From Porphyrobacter sp. ULC335 (lineage in GTDB: Bacteria > Pseudomonadota > Alphaproteobacteria > Sphingomonadales > Sphingomonadaceae), in the NCBI RefSeq assembly GCF_025917005.1, contig NZ_CP078091.1, forward strand, positions 2,418,001-2,482,000: 64,000 bases of DNA. The letters run 5' to 3'. Under the pieces are notes generated by a model, which ran no database searches, was not told the DNA's origin, and saw only the letters and a list, made by a program, of their open reading frames with translations. This document shows, piece by piece, positions 1,181 through 7,042 of the stretch. The position numbers and the translations under genes are program-made. Position 1 is the first letter of the stretch, and each line of letters opens with the position of its first letter.

Positions 1181-2110
1181 ATGAGTGCAGCACCCGCTTT
1201 CACCCCCGTAGCCCGCGATCCTGCGCGCTCGTTTCAGGACATGATCCTGACGCTCCATGATTTCTGGAGCGCCAATGGCTGCGTGATTCTGCAACCCTAT
1301 GACATGCGCATGGGCGCGGGCACGTTTCACACGGCAACCACGCTGCGCGCTTTGGGGCCGGAGCCGTGGAATGCGGCTTTTGTGCAGCCCTGCCGCCGCC
1401 CGACTGACGGGCGCTATGGCGAGAACCCCAACCGGCTTCAGCACTACTACCAGTATCAGGTGATCCTGAAGCCCTCGCCGTCTGACATTCAGGAGCTGTA
1501 CCTCCAAAGCCTCGCGGCGATTGGCATTGACCCGCTAGCGCATGACATCCGGTTCGTTGAAGACGACTGGGAAAGCCCGACGCTGGGTGCTTGGGGGCTG
1601 GGCTGGGAGGTCTGGTGCGACGGGATGGAAGTCACCCAGTTTACCTATTTCCAGCAGATGGGCGGCTTTGATTGCAAACCGGTCGCGGGCGAGTTGACCT
1701 ACGGGCTCGAACGGCTCGCGATGTATATTCAGGGCGTCGACAACGTCTATGACCTCGCGTTCAATTCCTCGGGCGTATCCTACGGCGACGTGTTCCTTGA
1801 GAACGAACGCCAGATGTCGAAGTGGAACTTCGAAGTCGCGGATACGGACGCGCTGTTCGACCTCTTCGCCAAGGCCGAGGCCGAGTGCCGCAACGCGCTG
1901 TCCGCTGGCGTGCCCATCGCTGCCTACGAGCAGGCGGTCGAGGCCAGCCATGTATTCAACCTGCTGCAAGCGCGCGGCGTGATCTCGGTGCAGGAACGCG
2001 CCAGCTACATGGGCCGGGTGCGCGACCTCGCGCGTTCGTCCTGCGAGGCTTACGCCGTCAAGATGACACCTGAATGGGAAGCGAAGTATCCGGGATGGAG
2101 TCTCGTCTGA
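1181..2110 (+). CDS. glyQ: Glycyl-tRNA synthetase alpha subunit
   Basis: GlyQ is the class II catalytic subunit that activates glycine and transfers it to tRNA-Gly as part of an alpha2beta2 enzyme in the cytoplasm. The 309-residue product has the characteristic N-terminal core ([12 protein letters not shown], then [15 protein letters not shown] and LRALGPEPW) and the [10 protein letters not shown]-like segment ([17 protein letters not shown]), at full family length. The start at 1181 has no strong ribosome binding site. It precedes glyS with a one-base stop/start overlap (TGATG), so the two subunits are coupled. Identification is secure. Confidence 0.97.
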
Positions 2111-4332
2111 TGGCTGACTTCCTGCTCGAACTGCGCTGCGAGGAAATCCCTGCCCGGATGCAGCCCAAGGCCAAAGAGGATCTGGCGCGGCTGTTTGCCG
2201 ATGCGCTGGCCAAGGCTGGCTTGACGGCAGGTTCGGTCGAAACCTTCGCCACCCCGCGCCGGTTGGCGCTGATTGCCAAGGACCTGCCGCTGGCGACCGC
2301 CGCCGTGAGCGAGGAGACCAAAGGGCCGAAAGTCGGCGCACCGCCGCAGGCGCTCGAAGGATTCCTCCGCAAGGTTGGCCTCACTGCGGAGCAACTGACC
2401 GAGCGTGACGGAGTCTATTTCGCCGTGGTCGAAAAGCCGGGGCGCGAGACCGCAGCAGTGCTGGCCGAAACCATCCCGGCGATCATCCGCGCCTTTCCCT
2501 GGCCCAAATCGATGCGCTGGGGCGCAGCATCGCTCAGCACGGAATCCCTGCGCTGGGTGCGTCCGCTTTCAGGGATCATCGCCTTGCTGGACGGCGCGGT
2601 GGTGCCTTGCGAGATTGACGGGATTGCCAGCGGGCGCACGACGATGGGGCACCGGTTCCATCATTCCGGTCCGGTCGATATCGCCAATGCCGGGGCCTAT
2701 ATCGAAACCCTGCGCGCAGCCCATGTGATCGTCCACTTCTCCGAACGCTGCAAACTGATCCGCGACGGCGCTGCCAAGGCCGCGGCCGTGGCGGGGCTGA
2801 CATTGGTCGAGGACGAAGGCCTCGTAATCGAGAACGCAGGCCTGACCGAATGGCCCAATGTCGGACTCGGAATTTTTGACGAGGCTTTTCTCGATGTTCC
2901 ACCCGAGGTCATCCAGCTCACCGCGCGGGTGAACCAGAAGTATTTCGTCTGTCAGGGGCCTGACGGGAAGCTTTTCAACGCCTTCATTTGCACGGCCAAT
3001 ATCGTCCCGCGCGACATGGGCATAGTGATTGAAGGGAACCATAAAGTCCTCGCCGCGCGGCTATCCGATGCGCGCTTCTTCTGGGAGCAGGATCAGAAGA
3101 CTTCGCTTGAGGATCACGCCAAAAAGCTGGCGCGGATTACCTTCCACGAGAAGCTGGGCACCGTCGCCGACAAGGTTGAGCGGGTGGCAAAGCTGGCGCG
3201 GTGGTTGGTTGAAGAACGCATTGTCATCCCCGCGAACGCGGGGACCCAGAACGGGACAGAGCAACAGGACGCCCTGGGTTCCCGCGTTCGCGGGAATGAC
3301 AAGGAAATTGCGGCGCTCGCCGACATGGCCGAACAGGCCGCGCGCCTGTGCAAGGCTGATCTCGTCACTGAAATGGTCGGCGAGTTCCCCGAATTGCAGG
3401 GCCTGATGGGCGGCTACTACGCCGCGAAGGAAGGCCTGCCGCAGGAGGTCGCCGAGGCAATCCGCGACCACTACAAGCCGGTCGGGCAGGGTGATGACGT
3501 GCCGACGGCTCCGGTGACGGTGGCGGTGTCGCTGGCGGATAAGCTGGATACCATGTTCTCGTTCTTTTCGGTGGAACTGTACCCAACCGGTTCCAAAGAC
3601 CCCTTCGCTCTGCGGCGTGCGATGCTGGGGATCATCGCTACGGTACTTAAGTCCGACCTGCGCGTGCCGTTTACGAAAATTGCCCGAACGCATTACGCTC
3701 TTCCGGACGGCCCGCTCGCGTGGTTCTTGGATTTTCTCGATGAGCGCCTCAAAGTCCAGCAGCGCGAAGCCGGCGTCCGTCACGACCTGATCGACGCGGT
3801 CTTCGCACTCGGGGGCGAGGACGATCTCGTCCGCCTGCTCGCCCGCGTCCATGCGCTCCAAACCTTTGTCACCACCGAGGACGGCACCAACCTCCTCGCA
3901 GGCTACAAGCGCGCGGCGAATATCCTCAAGAAGGAGGATTGGCGCGGGATCGAGGGGGAGATTTCCCAGACCGGCGAGGAAGACCCGCTGGCAATGGTTG
4001 ACGATCCCGATCTCGCGCCGGTAATCGCCGCAAAGATGGCCGAGCGCCATGCGGCAGCCGAGCACCTTACCTACACGCCCGAGCCTGCCGAGCAGGCGCT
4101 GATCGACGCGCTCGACGCCGCCGCGCCTCAGGCCGCCGCAGCGGTCGAGGCCGAACGCTTCGCCGATGCGATGGCCGCGCTCGCGTCCTTGCGCGCGCCG
4201 ATCGACAGGTTCTTTGAAGAGGTGACCGTCAACGCCGACGAGGCCAACAAGCGCGCCGCGCGCCTTGCCCTGCTCGCGCGGTTCCGCGATGCGGTCCACC
4301 GGGTTGCCGATTTCAGCCGGATCGAGGGATGA
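2110..4332 (+). CDS. glyS: Glycyl-tRNA synthetase beta subunit, with an in-frame palindromic repeat
   Basis: GlyS is the tRNA-binding and auxiliary subunit of bacterial glycyl-tRNA synthetase. The start is the ATG overlapping the glyQ stop ([18 protein letters not shown]), the usual GlyS N-terminus. The middle (KYFVCQGPDGKLFNAF, FFWEQDQKTSLEDH) and the C-terminal anticodon-binding-like region (ANILKKEDW to RVADFSRI) match the family. Residues 372-397 are not GlyS-like: they are the translation of a palindromic intergenic-type repeat (3223-3300), adding 26 residues without disturbing frame between RWLVEER and EIAALADMAEQ. The product is 740 aa, slightly long for the family, and probably still functional because glyS is essential. 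Confidence 0.96.
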   Translation: MADFLLELRCEEIPARMQPKAKEDLARLFADALAKAGLTAGSVETFATPRRLALIAKDLPLATAAVSEETKGPKVGAPPQALEGFLRKVGLTAEQLTERDGVYFAVVEKPGRETAAVLAETIPAIIRAFPWPKSMRWGAASLSTESLRWVRPLSGIIALLDGAVVPCEIDGIASGRTTMGHRFHHSGPVDIANAGAYIETLRAAHVIVHFSERCKLIRDGAAKAAAVAGLTLVEDEGLVIENAGLTEWPNVGLGIFDEAFLDVPPEVIQLTARVNQKYFVCQGPDGKLFNAFICTANIVPRDMGIVIEGNHKVLAARLSDARFFWEQDQKTSLEDHAKKLARITFHEKLGTVADKVERVAKLARWLVEERIVIPANAGTQNGTEQQDALGSRVRGNDKEIAALADMAEQAARLCKADLVTEMVGEFPELQGLMGGYYAAKEGLPQEVAEAIRDHYKPVGQGDDVPTAPVTVAVSLADKLDTMFSFFSVELYPTGSKDPFALRRAMLGIIATVLKSDLRVPFTKIARTHYALPDGPLAWFLDFLDERLKVQQREAGVRHDLIDAVFALGGEDDLVRLLARVHALQTFVTTEDGTNLLAGYKRAANILKKEDWRGIEGEISQTGEEDPLAMVDDPDLAPVIAAKMAERHAAAEHLTYTPEPAEQALIDALDAAAPQAAAAVEAERFADAMAALASLRAPIDRFFEEVTVNADEANKRAARLALLARFRDAVHRVADFSRIEG
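3223..3300. repeat. Palindromic repeat element inserted in glyS reading frame
   Basis: The arms at 3223-3249 and 3274-3300 are 27 bases each and match as an inverted repeat at 25 of 27 positions, separated by 24 bases. Outer ends are GTCAT and ATGAC, the hallmark of a repeat family usually found between genes. The element is exactly 78 bases, a multiple of three, and reads V-I-P-A-N-A-G-T-Q to R-V-R-G-N-D in frame. Confidence 0.9.
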
Positions 4333-4369: not shown

Positions 4370-7042
4370 ATGACATTGAAGACGGTCTATGTTTTCGGAG
4401 GCTCGGCCGACCACTCCGATCCGCGCCAGAAGGACAAGACCGTGGCAGGTGGCAAGGGTGCGAACCTTGCCGAAATGGCGAGCATCGGCCTGCCAGTTCC
4501 TCCGGGTTTCACAATCACCACCGAAGAATGTGTGCGTTATCTTCAGGATGGTGCGGATTTCTCCGATGCCCTGCGCACCGCCGTGGCAGAAGCTCTGACC
4601 CATGTCGAAGCCACCGTCGGCAAGCGGTTTGGCGATGCCGCCGATCCGCTGCTGGTCTCGGTCCGTTCGGGCGCACGGGTTTCCATGCCGGGGATGATGG
4701 ACACGGTTCTCAACCTCGGCCTGAATGACGCGACGGTCGAAGGGCTGGCGCAGTCCTCCGGCGACGCGCGCTTTGCCTGGGACAGCTACCGCCGGTTCAT
4801 CCAGATGTACTCGGACGTGGTGCTTGGCATCGATCACGGATTGTTCGAAGAAGCGCTGGAGATCGCAAAGGAAGACAAGGGCTTCTACAACGATACCGAG
4901 ATGGCGGCTGAAGACTGGCAGGCGCTGGTCAGCGAATACAACGGCATCGTTGCGGATGAACTCGGCAGGCCGTTCCCGCAGGATGTGCACGAACAACTGT
5001 GGGGCGCGATCCGCGCCGTGTTCGACAGCTGGGATTCTGACCGCGCCAAGGTCTATCGCCGCTTGAACGATATCCCGGGCGACTGGGGCACCGCAGTCAA
5101 TGTGCAGGCGATGGTGTTCGGCAACATGGGCGAAACCAGCGCCACCGGCGTCGCCTTCACCCGCGATCCCGCAACGGGCAACCGCGCCTACTACGGCGAG
5201 TACCTGATCAACGCGCAGGGCGAGGACGTGGTGGCGGGCATCCGCACGCCGCAATACCTCACCAAAGCCGCGCGCGAGACCGCCGGGGCCAAGCCGCTGT
5301 CGATGGAAGAGGCGCTGCCGGAAGCCTATGGCGAGCTGGCCCGCGTGTTCGATCTGCTCGAGCTGCATTACAAGGATATGCAGGACATCGAGTTCACTGT
5401 GGAACGCGGCAAGCTGTGGATGCTCCAGACCCGCTCGGGCAAGCGCACCGCCAAGGCTGCGCTCAAGATGGCGGTCGACATGGTGGCCGAGGGCCTGATC
5501 GACGAGCGCGAGGCAGTGCGGCGGGTCGACCCGATGGCGCTGGACCAGCTGCTTCACCCGACGCTCGATCCCAAGGCCGTGCGCAATGTGCTGACCACCG
5601 GGCTTCCGGCCTCGCCGGGTGCTGCGGCGGGCAAGATCGTGCTCGACGCCGATACGGCCGAACAATGGGCCGGACGCGGCGAGAAGGTCATTCTGGTGCG
5701 GGTCGAAACCTCGCCTGAGGACATCCACGGTATGCACGCCGCGCAAGGCATCCTGACAGCGCGCGGCGGGATGACTAGCCACGCGGCGGTCGTCGCGCGC
5801 GGCATGGGGCGGCCCTGCGTTTCGGGCGCCGGGGCCGTGTCGATCGACCGGGCGAGCCGCACGCTGCGGATTGGCGCGACCGAGTTGAAGGAAGGCGACG
5901 CCATCACCCTCGACGGGGCGACGGGGAAGGTGATGCTCGGCATCGTCCCCACCGTCGAGCCGGAGCTGGCGGGCGATTTCGGCGTGCTGATGGTGTGGGC
6001 GGACAAGCTGCGGCGCATGAAAGTGCGCACCAATGCAGAAACGCCGGAGGATTGCCGCATGGCGCGCCAGTTCGGGGCCGAGGGCATCGGGCTGTGCCGC
6101 ACCGAGCACATGTTCTTCGAAGCGAGCCGGATCAGCCTGGTGCGCCAGATGATCCTCGCTGATGACGAGGCCGGCCGCCGCCGCGCGCTGGAAAAGCTTC
6201 TGCCCGAACAGCGCGCCGATTTCACCGCGATCTTCGAGGTTATGGCGGGGCTGCCGTGCACCATTCGTCTGCTCGACCCGCCGCTCCACGAATTCCTCCC
6301 CCACGCCGATGAAGACTTCGCAGAGCTGGCTGACGCGACCGGGCTTGGCGTCGATCACCTGAAACGCCGCGCGGGCGAGCTGCACGAATTCAACCCCATG
6401 CTCGGCCACCGCGGCTGCCGCCTTGGCATCACCTATCCCGAAATCTACGAGATGCAGGCACGCGCGATTTTCGAAGCCGTGTGCGCGGTAAAGATCGCGA
6501 GCGGCGCGGCACCCTTGCCCGAAATCATGATTCCGCTGGTCGCTACCAAGCGTGAACTGGCGATCCTGAAGGCGCTGGTCGACAAGACGGCCGAAGCGGT
6601 GTTCGCCGAAGTCGGCACGCGGGTGGAATATCTCGTCGGCACGATGATCGAACTGCCGCGCGCCGCCTTGATGGCGGGCGAGATTGCCGAGGAAGGCGCA
6701 TTCTTCAGCTTCGGCACCAATGACCTCACCCAGACCACGCTCGGCGTGTCGCGCGATGATGCGGCACGGTTCCTTAGCGTCTACGTCGACAAGGGTATCT
6801 TCCCGCGCGATCCGTTCGTCAGCCTCGACATCGAAGGCGTCGGCCAGTTGGTCGAACTGGCAGCGGAGCGGGGTAGGGCGACCCGGCCCGACATCAAGCT
6901 CGGCATCTGCGGCGAGCATGGCGGCGATCCGGCGAGTATCGCCTTCTGTGAGAAGGTGGGACTCGATTACGTCAGCGCCTCGCCTTACCGCGTACCGATT
7001 GCGCGGTTGGCTGCTGCGCAGGCTGCGCTGAAGAAGGCCTAG
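4370..7042 (+). CDS. ppdK: Pyruvate, phosphate dikinase
   Basis: PPDK interconverts pyruvate, ATP and phosphate with phosphoenolpyruvate, AMP and pyrophosphate in the cytoplasm. The 890-residue product has the N-terminal ATP-grasp domain (KTVAGGKGANLAEM, later YFGEY-type YYGEYLINAQGEDVVAG), the swivelling phospho-histidine domain with GGMTSHAAVVARGMG (catalytic His at about residue 471), and the C-terminal PEP-utilising barrel (GIGLCRTEHMF, PMLGHRGCRLGITYPE, SFGTNDLTQ). The start ATG at 4370 was chosen because the family begins with a short lead into YVFGG. It lies 37 bases after glyS on the same strand, an order seen in related alphaproteobacteria. Its TAG overlaps the stop of the converging methyltransferase gene. 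Confidence 0.97.
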   Translation: MTLKTVYVFGGSADHSDPRQKDKTVAGGKGANLAEMASIGLPVPPGFTITTEECVRYLQDGADFSDALRTAVAEALTHVEATVGKRFGDAADPLLVSVRSGARVSMPGMMDTVLNLGLNDATVEGLAQSSGDARFAWDSYRRFIQMYSDVVLGIDHGLFEEALEIAKEDKGFYNDTEMAAEDWQALVSEYNGIVADELGRPFPQDVHEQLWGAIRAVFDSWDSDRAKVYRRLNDIPGDWGTAVNVQAMVFGNMGETSATGVAFTRDPATGNRAYYGEYLINAQGEDVVAGIRTPQYLTKAARETAGAKPLSMEEALPEAYGELARVFDLLELHYKDMQDIEFTVERGKLWMLQTRSGKRTAKAALKMAVDMVAEGLIDEREAVRRVDPMALDQLLHPTLDPKAVRNVLTTGLPASPGAAAGKIVLDADTAEQWAGRGEKVILVRVETSPEDIHGMHAAQGILTARGGMTSHAAVVARGMGRPCVSGAGAVSIDRASRTLRIGATELKEGDAITLDGATGKVMLGIVPTVEPELAGDFGVLMVWADKLRRMKVRTNAETPEDCRMARQFGAEGIGLCRTEHMFFEASRISLVRQMILADDEAGRRRALEKLLPEQRADFTAIFEVMAGLPCTIRLLDPPLHEFLPHADEDFAELADATGLGVDHLKRRAGELHEFNPMLGHRGCRLGITYPEIYEMQARAIFEAVCAVKIASGAAPLPEIMIPLVATKRELAILKALVDKTAEAVFAEVGTRVEYLVGTMIELPRAALMAGEIAEEGAFFSFGTNDLTQTTLGVSRDDAARFLSVYVDKGIFPRDPFVSLDIEGVGQLVELAAERGRATRPDIKLGICGEHGGDPASIAFCEKVGLDYVSASPYRVPIARLAAAQAALKKA

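Follow-up and report, generated by a model that had tools for sequence, protein, structure and literature searches.

An in-frame REP dimer in glyS of Porphyrobacter sp. ULC335 lies at a codon that holds palindromes of several families across sphingomonads

In a stretch of 64,000 nucleotides from Porphyrobacter sp. ULC335 (the window; contig NZ_CP078091.1, positions 2,418,001 to 2,482,000), a palindromic repeat lies inside the coding sequence of glyS, which encodes one subunit of an essential enzyme and is present in this genome as a single copy. In-frame selfish repeats have been recorded in Rickettsia and, here and there, in genes of other organisms, and this locus bears on how they enter genes and on whether the sites that they enter are reused. 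The features concerned are collected in Table 1; the gene at 4370-7042 is presumed to be pyruvate phosphate dikinase-like.

Table 1. Coordinates of the insert, its host gene, the control genes and two further insert sites in the window.
Feature	Position	Strand	Basis
glyS, glycine--tRNA ligase beta subunit, 740 aa, host gene	2110..4332	+	ORF + Pfam
78-bp REP dimer, codons 372-397 (VIPANAGTQNGTEQQDALGSRVRGND); palindrome extends 3221-3302	3223..3300	+	
Left REP half, TGTC-tagged, loop GAAC, tail CCA	3223..3247	+	pattern match
Right REP half, inverted	3276..3300	-	pattern match
glyQ, alpha subunit, control gene	1181..2110	+	
Presumed pyruvate phosphate dikinase-like gene, control gene	4370..7042	+	
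glyS site 3, residues 611-650, where relatives have a second insert site; repeat-free here	3940..4059	+	
glyS site 0, residues 283-294, around beta-hairpin turn; empty here	2956..2991	+	

The glyS insert and its sister copies

A reading of the sequence alone had proposed a palindromic repeat of a usually intergenic kind that adds residues to GlyS without breaking its frame, and analysis of the insert bore this out. The insert opens codon 372 with its base at position 3223 and closes codon 397 with that at position 3300, giving exactly 26 codons with no stop or frameshift, and the surrounding inverted repeat has 29-nt arms (3221-3249 and 3274-3302) that are 93% complementary. The predicted RNA fold of positions 3215-3308 had an energy of -57.8 kcal/mol in comparison to -28.9 for shuffled sequences (z -8.6), and none of 200 shuffles folded as low. 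A 25-nt REP pattern allowing up to three mismatches matched twice in the 64-kb window, both times in the glyS insert, where 0.01 matches were expected. The insert at 3223-3300 is thus confirmed as an inverted pair of CGTC/TGTC-type REPs lying in frame inside glyS. None of the seven Rfam matches to positions 2900-3600 reached the gathering score; they were to five microRNA families, a snoRNA and Ms1. A plasmid search returned four weak records, one of them under ileS of Sphingopyxis indica.

The host gene encodes a full GlyS beta subunit (PF02092, E 1.3e-182). It is the single GlyS match in its genome (3.62 Mb, one contig), where no dimeric GlyRS scored above the curated cut-off, and the gene does not look like the second copy that would have counted against the earlier reading. 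That reading took the insert for a probable surface loop, and an AlphaFold2 model of GlyS (mean pLDDT 89.7) agrees as to the loop, with residues 372-397 in a predicted loop between helices 352-368 and 397-413 that is modelled at low confidence (block pLDDT 69, 48 and 74). A Foldseek search matched the model to E. coli GlyRS bound to tRNA (7yse). According to the passages compared of the E. coli report (PMC9908026), the HD domain of that enzyme contacts the acceptor stem and U73, with C74 at Thr406 and Gln409. By alignment these two residues correspond to residues 427 and 430 of the GlyS encoded in the window, 30 residues past the end of the insert, a placement that would put the insert in the HD domain.

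Further copies were sought in the same genome and were found. At up to two mismatches the REP pattern yielded 16 half-sites (a reversed control pattern yielded 0). Three sister dimers, at 746448, 1069754 and 2212193, measure 78, 78 and 77 bp and have an arm layout similar to that of the glyS copy. Judged from stop-to-stop ORFs only, these sister dimers seem to be intergenic or to sit at the edges of genes. In comparison to all three, both loops of the glyS copy are changed and its arms are still complementary (GAAC/GTTC versus GAAA/TTTC). The matched changes in the two glyS arms, at window positions 3237 and 3286, are of the sort seen in quasi-palindrome correction or with a different source copy.

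The passages compared of Di Nocera 2013 (PMC3733652) describe CGTC-1 repeats as having a CGTC or TGTC end, an 8-bp stem with complementary AT first, a 4-nt loop and a CCA tail, and as forming head-to-head dimers, mostly in alphaproteobacteria. The glyS insert fits this family in its end motif (TGTC at 3222-3225, inverted at the other end), its GAAC loop, its CCA tail and its repetition as inverted dimers, with four dimers of 77-78 bp in the genome counting the glyS copy, but one outer pair is off, as seven of eight stem pairs form by eye and the outermost A stands opposite C. CGTC repeats are also described there as lacking associated transposase genes (PMC3733652). A search of the window's genome for Y1_Tnp, the only transposase class searched, gave no match, and RAYT was rejected as the mover of the dimers in this genome on that ground; Y1_Tnp was present in three of the 37 genomes searched in the genus. 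At 2755680-2756119 of the window's genome (G000, locus L243), two places are 100% identical over 36-41 nt to one arm of a differently classed (D-type) insert found in glyS locus L102, and another family able to enter glyS is therefore present in this genome.

Insert sites in glyS and control genes

The insert site was compared over 110 aligned GlyS rows, comprising the window gene, 80 named loci and 29 further loci; L006 and L007, which are copies of the window locus, were left out. Site 1 was measured as the residues from V372 to the AEQ helix, right after RWLVEEGI. In the sphingomonad clade, which has 98 rows, it was filled in 49, with 16-65 residues, while the remaining 49 held 8-14 residues; outside this clade none of the 12 rows was filled (10 of other alphaproteobacterial groups; 8-12 residues). 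Within the window's genus 12 of 28 rows were filled, with inserts from six bins. These bins are peptide patterns of our own making, and the seven bins together hold 45 of the 49 inserts: A (REP, 19), D (10), F (7), C (4), B (2), E (2) and G (1). The four remaining inserts are unassigned. B and C may be related, as may D and E, and at least five bins are unrelated as DNA when judged by eye. The site-1 codon is a recurrent landing site for several palindrome families.

The earlier reading had asked whether the insertion is private. On the tree its nearest neighbours (L109 and L110) have no insert at site 1, and the objection that all close relatives carry the same conserved segment therefore fails. 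In kind, however, the insert is not wholly private: L106, a congener further off, carries a CGTC-type dimer that resembles it, inserts of some sort fill this place in half of the sphingomonad rows, and 30 of the 49 inserts fall outside the window's bin. As in insertions of Rickettsia palindromic elements (RPE), the window insert is in frame in a single, intact and presumably functional glyS and is absent from close homologues.

Most of the inserts fold strongly, with 41 of 49 at z < -3 in comparison to 2/110 and 0/109 control segments from the same genes (60 shuffles each); eight inserts missed this threshold, five of which were not below -2. Elsewhere in glyS, z < -3 was reached by 3/90 segments of a hypervariable loop and by 21/56 segments at site 3. 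Filled alleles of different bins often share flanks that are absent from empty alleles (VT before and LAD[LM]AEQ after the insert), which leaves room for their descent from a single old filled allele whose core was replaced, instead of from many fresh insertions. Comparison with L109 or L110 gave no clean empty-site junction and no target-site duplication.

Several site-1 inserts are repeated in their own genomes. Used as queries, the inserts of L039 and L049 had 61 and 108 own-genome matches (both strands counted), and the arms of the L102 insert occurred at 11 further places in its genome (G001). The L039 insert opens with the 3' end of a tRNA-Asn (28 nt, 96%) and continues as a REP dimer; the tRNA gene that it matches lies on another contig, where that REP does not follow it. 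The corresponding first 30 nt of the L049 insert, which look similar, had no own-genome match at E 0.5, and a tRNA origin is confirmed for L039 only. Rfam searches of L039, L049, L032 and L048 gave no tRNA match and nothing above the gathering score.

The frequency of such repeats was then compared between genes, a strong inverted repeat being defined as ungapped with a score of 15 or more and counted within matched gene spans. They were present in 41 of 110 glyS genes and in no codon-shuffled glyS. The 52 repeats in glyS were concentrated at site 1 (34) and site 3 (14), with two at site 0 and two elsewhere; in a few relatives site 0 holds a palindrome or a repeat-like peptide. By the same rule, genes from the genus carried them in 2/30 (ileS), 0/30 (pheT) and 0/30 (alaS) cases. 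None was found in glyQ over 107 loci (94 kb), one in the presumed dikinase-like gene over 96 loci, many of which only partly cover the gene (190 kb), and 51 in the remaining 234 kb of flanking sequence of the same loci, in which genes and spacers are pooled. In ileS, a shared site after the motif QWFVPMD carries a repeat-like insert, of type A, B, C or D, in seven of 29 readable genes by eye (L128, L140, L145, L149, L151, L152 and L153; the thirtieth, L132, had no motif match). The other ileS rows hold a non-repeat loop of seven residues or longer, and this site is empty in the ileS of the window's genome (L148). The difference between seven of 29 by eye and two of 30 by rule indicates that the strict inverted-repeat rule undercounts. 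Overall, the insert pattern does not extend to long genes in general, and glyS is not the only gene that shows it.

Some other variable stretches were also noted. Window positions 3652-3729 (GlyS residues 515-540) form a mostly non-palindromic hypervariable loop whose length and sequence vary widely between species. Over residues about 486-575, distances were nearly uncorrelated with those of the rest of GlyS (r -0.05 to 0.1), as if shuffled between genera, in a test that left out the 12 rows outside the clade and seven partial rows. The genus ileS set (L127-L156) has an apparent extra variable stretch at blocks 661-710 of an alignment that included a few antisense frames, and at L199 an inverted repeat sits at the upstream end of the alaS frame, beyond the matched span.

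Apparent turnover at site 1 and copies in several genes

The distribution of inserts was mapped on a GlyS tree built by a quick method from 557 conserved columns without the variable sites, using all 110 rows, partial ones included. Ten site-1 labels required 50 changes in comparison to a shuffled mean of 50.1, with 108 of 200 shuffles as low, a comparison in which the small bins leave little power. When empty rows were scored against the rest, 31 changes were required (shuffled mean 37.0; 14 of 500 shuffles as low), 19 of them forced by well-supported branches. Presence or absence at site 1 is weakly clustered on the GlyS tree, and the site appears to have been gained, lost and swapped repeatedly while glyS stayed open.

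Two Sphingobium genes with inserts of different bins, L073 and L076, are 97% identical just upstream, 59-75% in the middle and 87-97% at 150-360 columns further on, their difference being confined to the insert and its edges. In L112, alignment segments at residues 361, 371 and 401 are 97%, 78-89% and 80-87% identical to L019 (Novosphingobium) and L030 (Allopontixanthobacter) in comparison to 53-60%, 43% and 60% to the congeners, L109 and L110; on either side of this region the congeners are the more similar ones. The foreign-like empty-site segment spans about 100 bp, and these identities suggest that L112 is one clear case of a bounded cross-genus import of a short site segment. The empty-site segment of L053 resembles Qipengyuania from residue 361 on, but it was rejected as a second short-tract import, as downstream windows also lean to the other genus and the tract is unbounded.

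A subfamily of 75 bp, or 25 codons, is read in one frame (VTPAKAG...PASAGMT) and occurs in several genes. In genome G016 it lies in glyS, ileS and valS, with 73, 73 and 71 of 75 positions identical in pairwise comparison (95-97%), while the 60-bp flanks of these copies share 17-23 of 60 positions and no other full-length match in this genome exceeds 79% identity. Copies so alike in unrelated surroundings within one genome require real movement. A blended peptide of the element had matches in 51 of 396 genomes of the order. Among 32 loci (30 from this order-wide peptide search and two others, with L258 and L276 apparently in one genome), 18 had ORFs of at least 350 codons with a repeat-like peptide. 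Fifteen of these were glyS (7), ileS (4), uvrA (3) and valS (1), one was aminotransferase-like with its match at the very start and below family cut-offs, and two matched no NCBIfam family. The other 14 loci had shorter ORFs only or, at L286, a match within a 776-codon frame, and copies outside long genes are therefore common too. In genome G063, the 75-bp copies at L254 and L262 lie outside long ORFs and that at L267 lies inside an ORF. In-frame REP-type elements are found at about the same place in the uvrA genes of L258, L284 and L290.

Candidate explanations and known systems

We consider it probable that a TGTC/CGTC-type REP dimer entered glyS in frame and was tolerated in a predicted permissive loop with fast palindrome turnover. 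Translation of the dimer would yield a flexible loop, one of a small number of permissive positions in long sphingomonad genes (glyS, ileS, valS and uvrA) that would take several kinds of palindrome, which may enter, be replaced by another palindrome and be lost at such a rate that the enzyme tree keeps little trace. The loop would be disordered and harmless, selection would mainly filter for an open frame, and a copying process other than RAYT would move the dimers. How we weigh this and the following readings depends on the copies in glyS, ileS and valS and on the counts. A possible, if not favoured, history is that one ancient filled allele spread by homologous recombination and that its core was later converted by other palindromes, with few true insertions. 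The flanks shared by filled alleles would fit such a history, as would the L073/L076 difference, limited to a middle stretch between flanks of high identity, and the cross-genus resemblance of L112 (short) and L053 (unbounded downstream); however, the nearly identical elements with unrelated flanks in three genes of G016 speak against it, and the window insert resembles dimers of its own genome in length and layout. It is rather unlikely, in our view, that the synthetase and uvrA loops are true recombination hotspots, in which palindromes provoke repair or capture that copies in available hairpin DNA (REPs, other repeats and in one case a tRNA 3' end) and in-frame cassettes pass from one essential gene to another within a cell, and from genus to genus.

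The inserts may alternatively be selected for, either because loop diversity is useful in synthetase genes or because a hairpin in the mRNA is, through slower translation or a more stable transcript. The 15 of 18 long ORFs with the 75-bp element that are glyS, ileS, valS or uvrA could be read in this way, as could the filling of half of the rows and the presence in GlyS of another hypervariable loop with surroundings shuffled relative to the rest; but the other half of the rows, some of them close to filled rows on the tree, hold no insert, and the peptides, for which there is no known phenotype, share nothing beyond their palindrome coding, leaving selection an unlikely cause. We hold it improbable that a dedicated mobile element targets the synthetase and uvrA loops by sequence. 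The high-identity copies of G016 all lie in glyS, ileS and valS and other full-length matches there stay at or below 79%, and the last three bases of the ATCGTC present at many empty sites, GTC, are also those with which CGTC elements begin, which could indicate such targeting. Different families at the same site, however, cannot all be explained by a single target specificity, and the G063 copies outside long ORFs or in another ORF, together with CGTC repeats having no known transposase in the passages compared (PMC3733652), also count against it. That the glyS copy is damaged or the insert an assembly artefact is scarcely credible: nothing was found in favour of either, while the frame is open, the gene is the single match and matches Pfam over its full length, and 49 rows have open in-frame inserts at the same place.

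If a probable insertion and turnover of tolerated palindromes is accepted, one codon of an essential enzyme that holds several palindrome families over dozens of species, with near neighbours differing, makes rates, mechanism and cost testable in culturable bacteria. It suggests a route by which essential proteins acquire new loops, and it cautions against taking loops of this sort for conserved protein sequence.

REPs inside genes, including tRNA synthetases of two sphingomonads, are already in print; the two, E. lithoralis and S. alaskensis, we take to be sphingomonads. Passages of Di Nocera 2013 (PMC3733652) report REPs inside the ORFs of uvrA (O. terrae and Thioalkalivibrio) and of tRNA synthetases (X. 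oryzae, E. lithoralis and S. alaskensis), and a REP at about the same site in recB of two Xanthomonas species, whereas REPs in other genes that share a functional category are said to differ in position. The passages of that paper compared here mention neither the use of one codon by different families nor its turnover on a tree, and neither near-identical copies in three synthetases nor exchange between genera. The QMITEs of Coxiella are small inverted-repeat elements that extend or enter ORFs, some in frame, and no shared landing codon is reported for them in the passages compared (PMC5896051); they are set apart by this description and not by a sequence comparison. None of the titles and abstract openings listed in literature searches reports palindromes at a shared glyS codon, and the occurrence of different families at one codon, their turnover and the copies in three genes are apparently new.

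A REPIN consists of two inverted REPs as a unit. The glyS dimer shares this unit with REPINs, which go with RAYT, but its own genome has no Y1_Tnp match and few copies. The classic case of in-frame palindromes in protein genes is reportedly that of the RPEs (Ogata 2000, 2002). The comparison with Rickettsia made in the sequence-only reading is apt, as the passages compared of Di Nocera 2013 equate the CGTC-1 repeats of R. conorii with RPE-6 (PMC3733652). The hosts of RPEs are obligate intracellular bacteria, whereas the hosts here are sphingomonads in which one site is used by several families.
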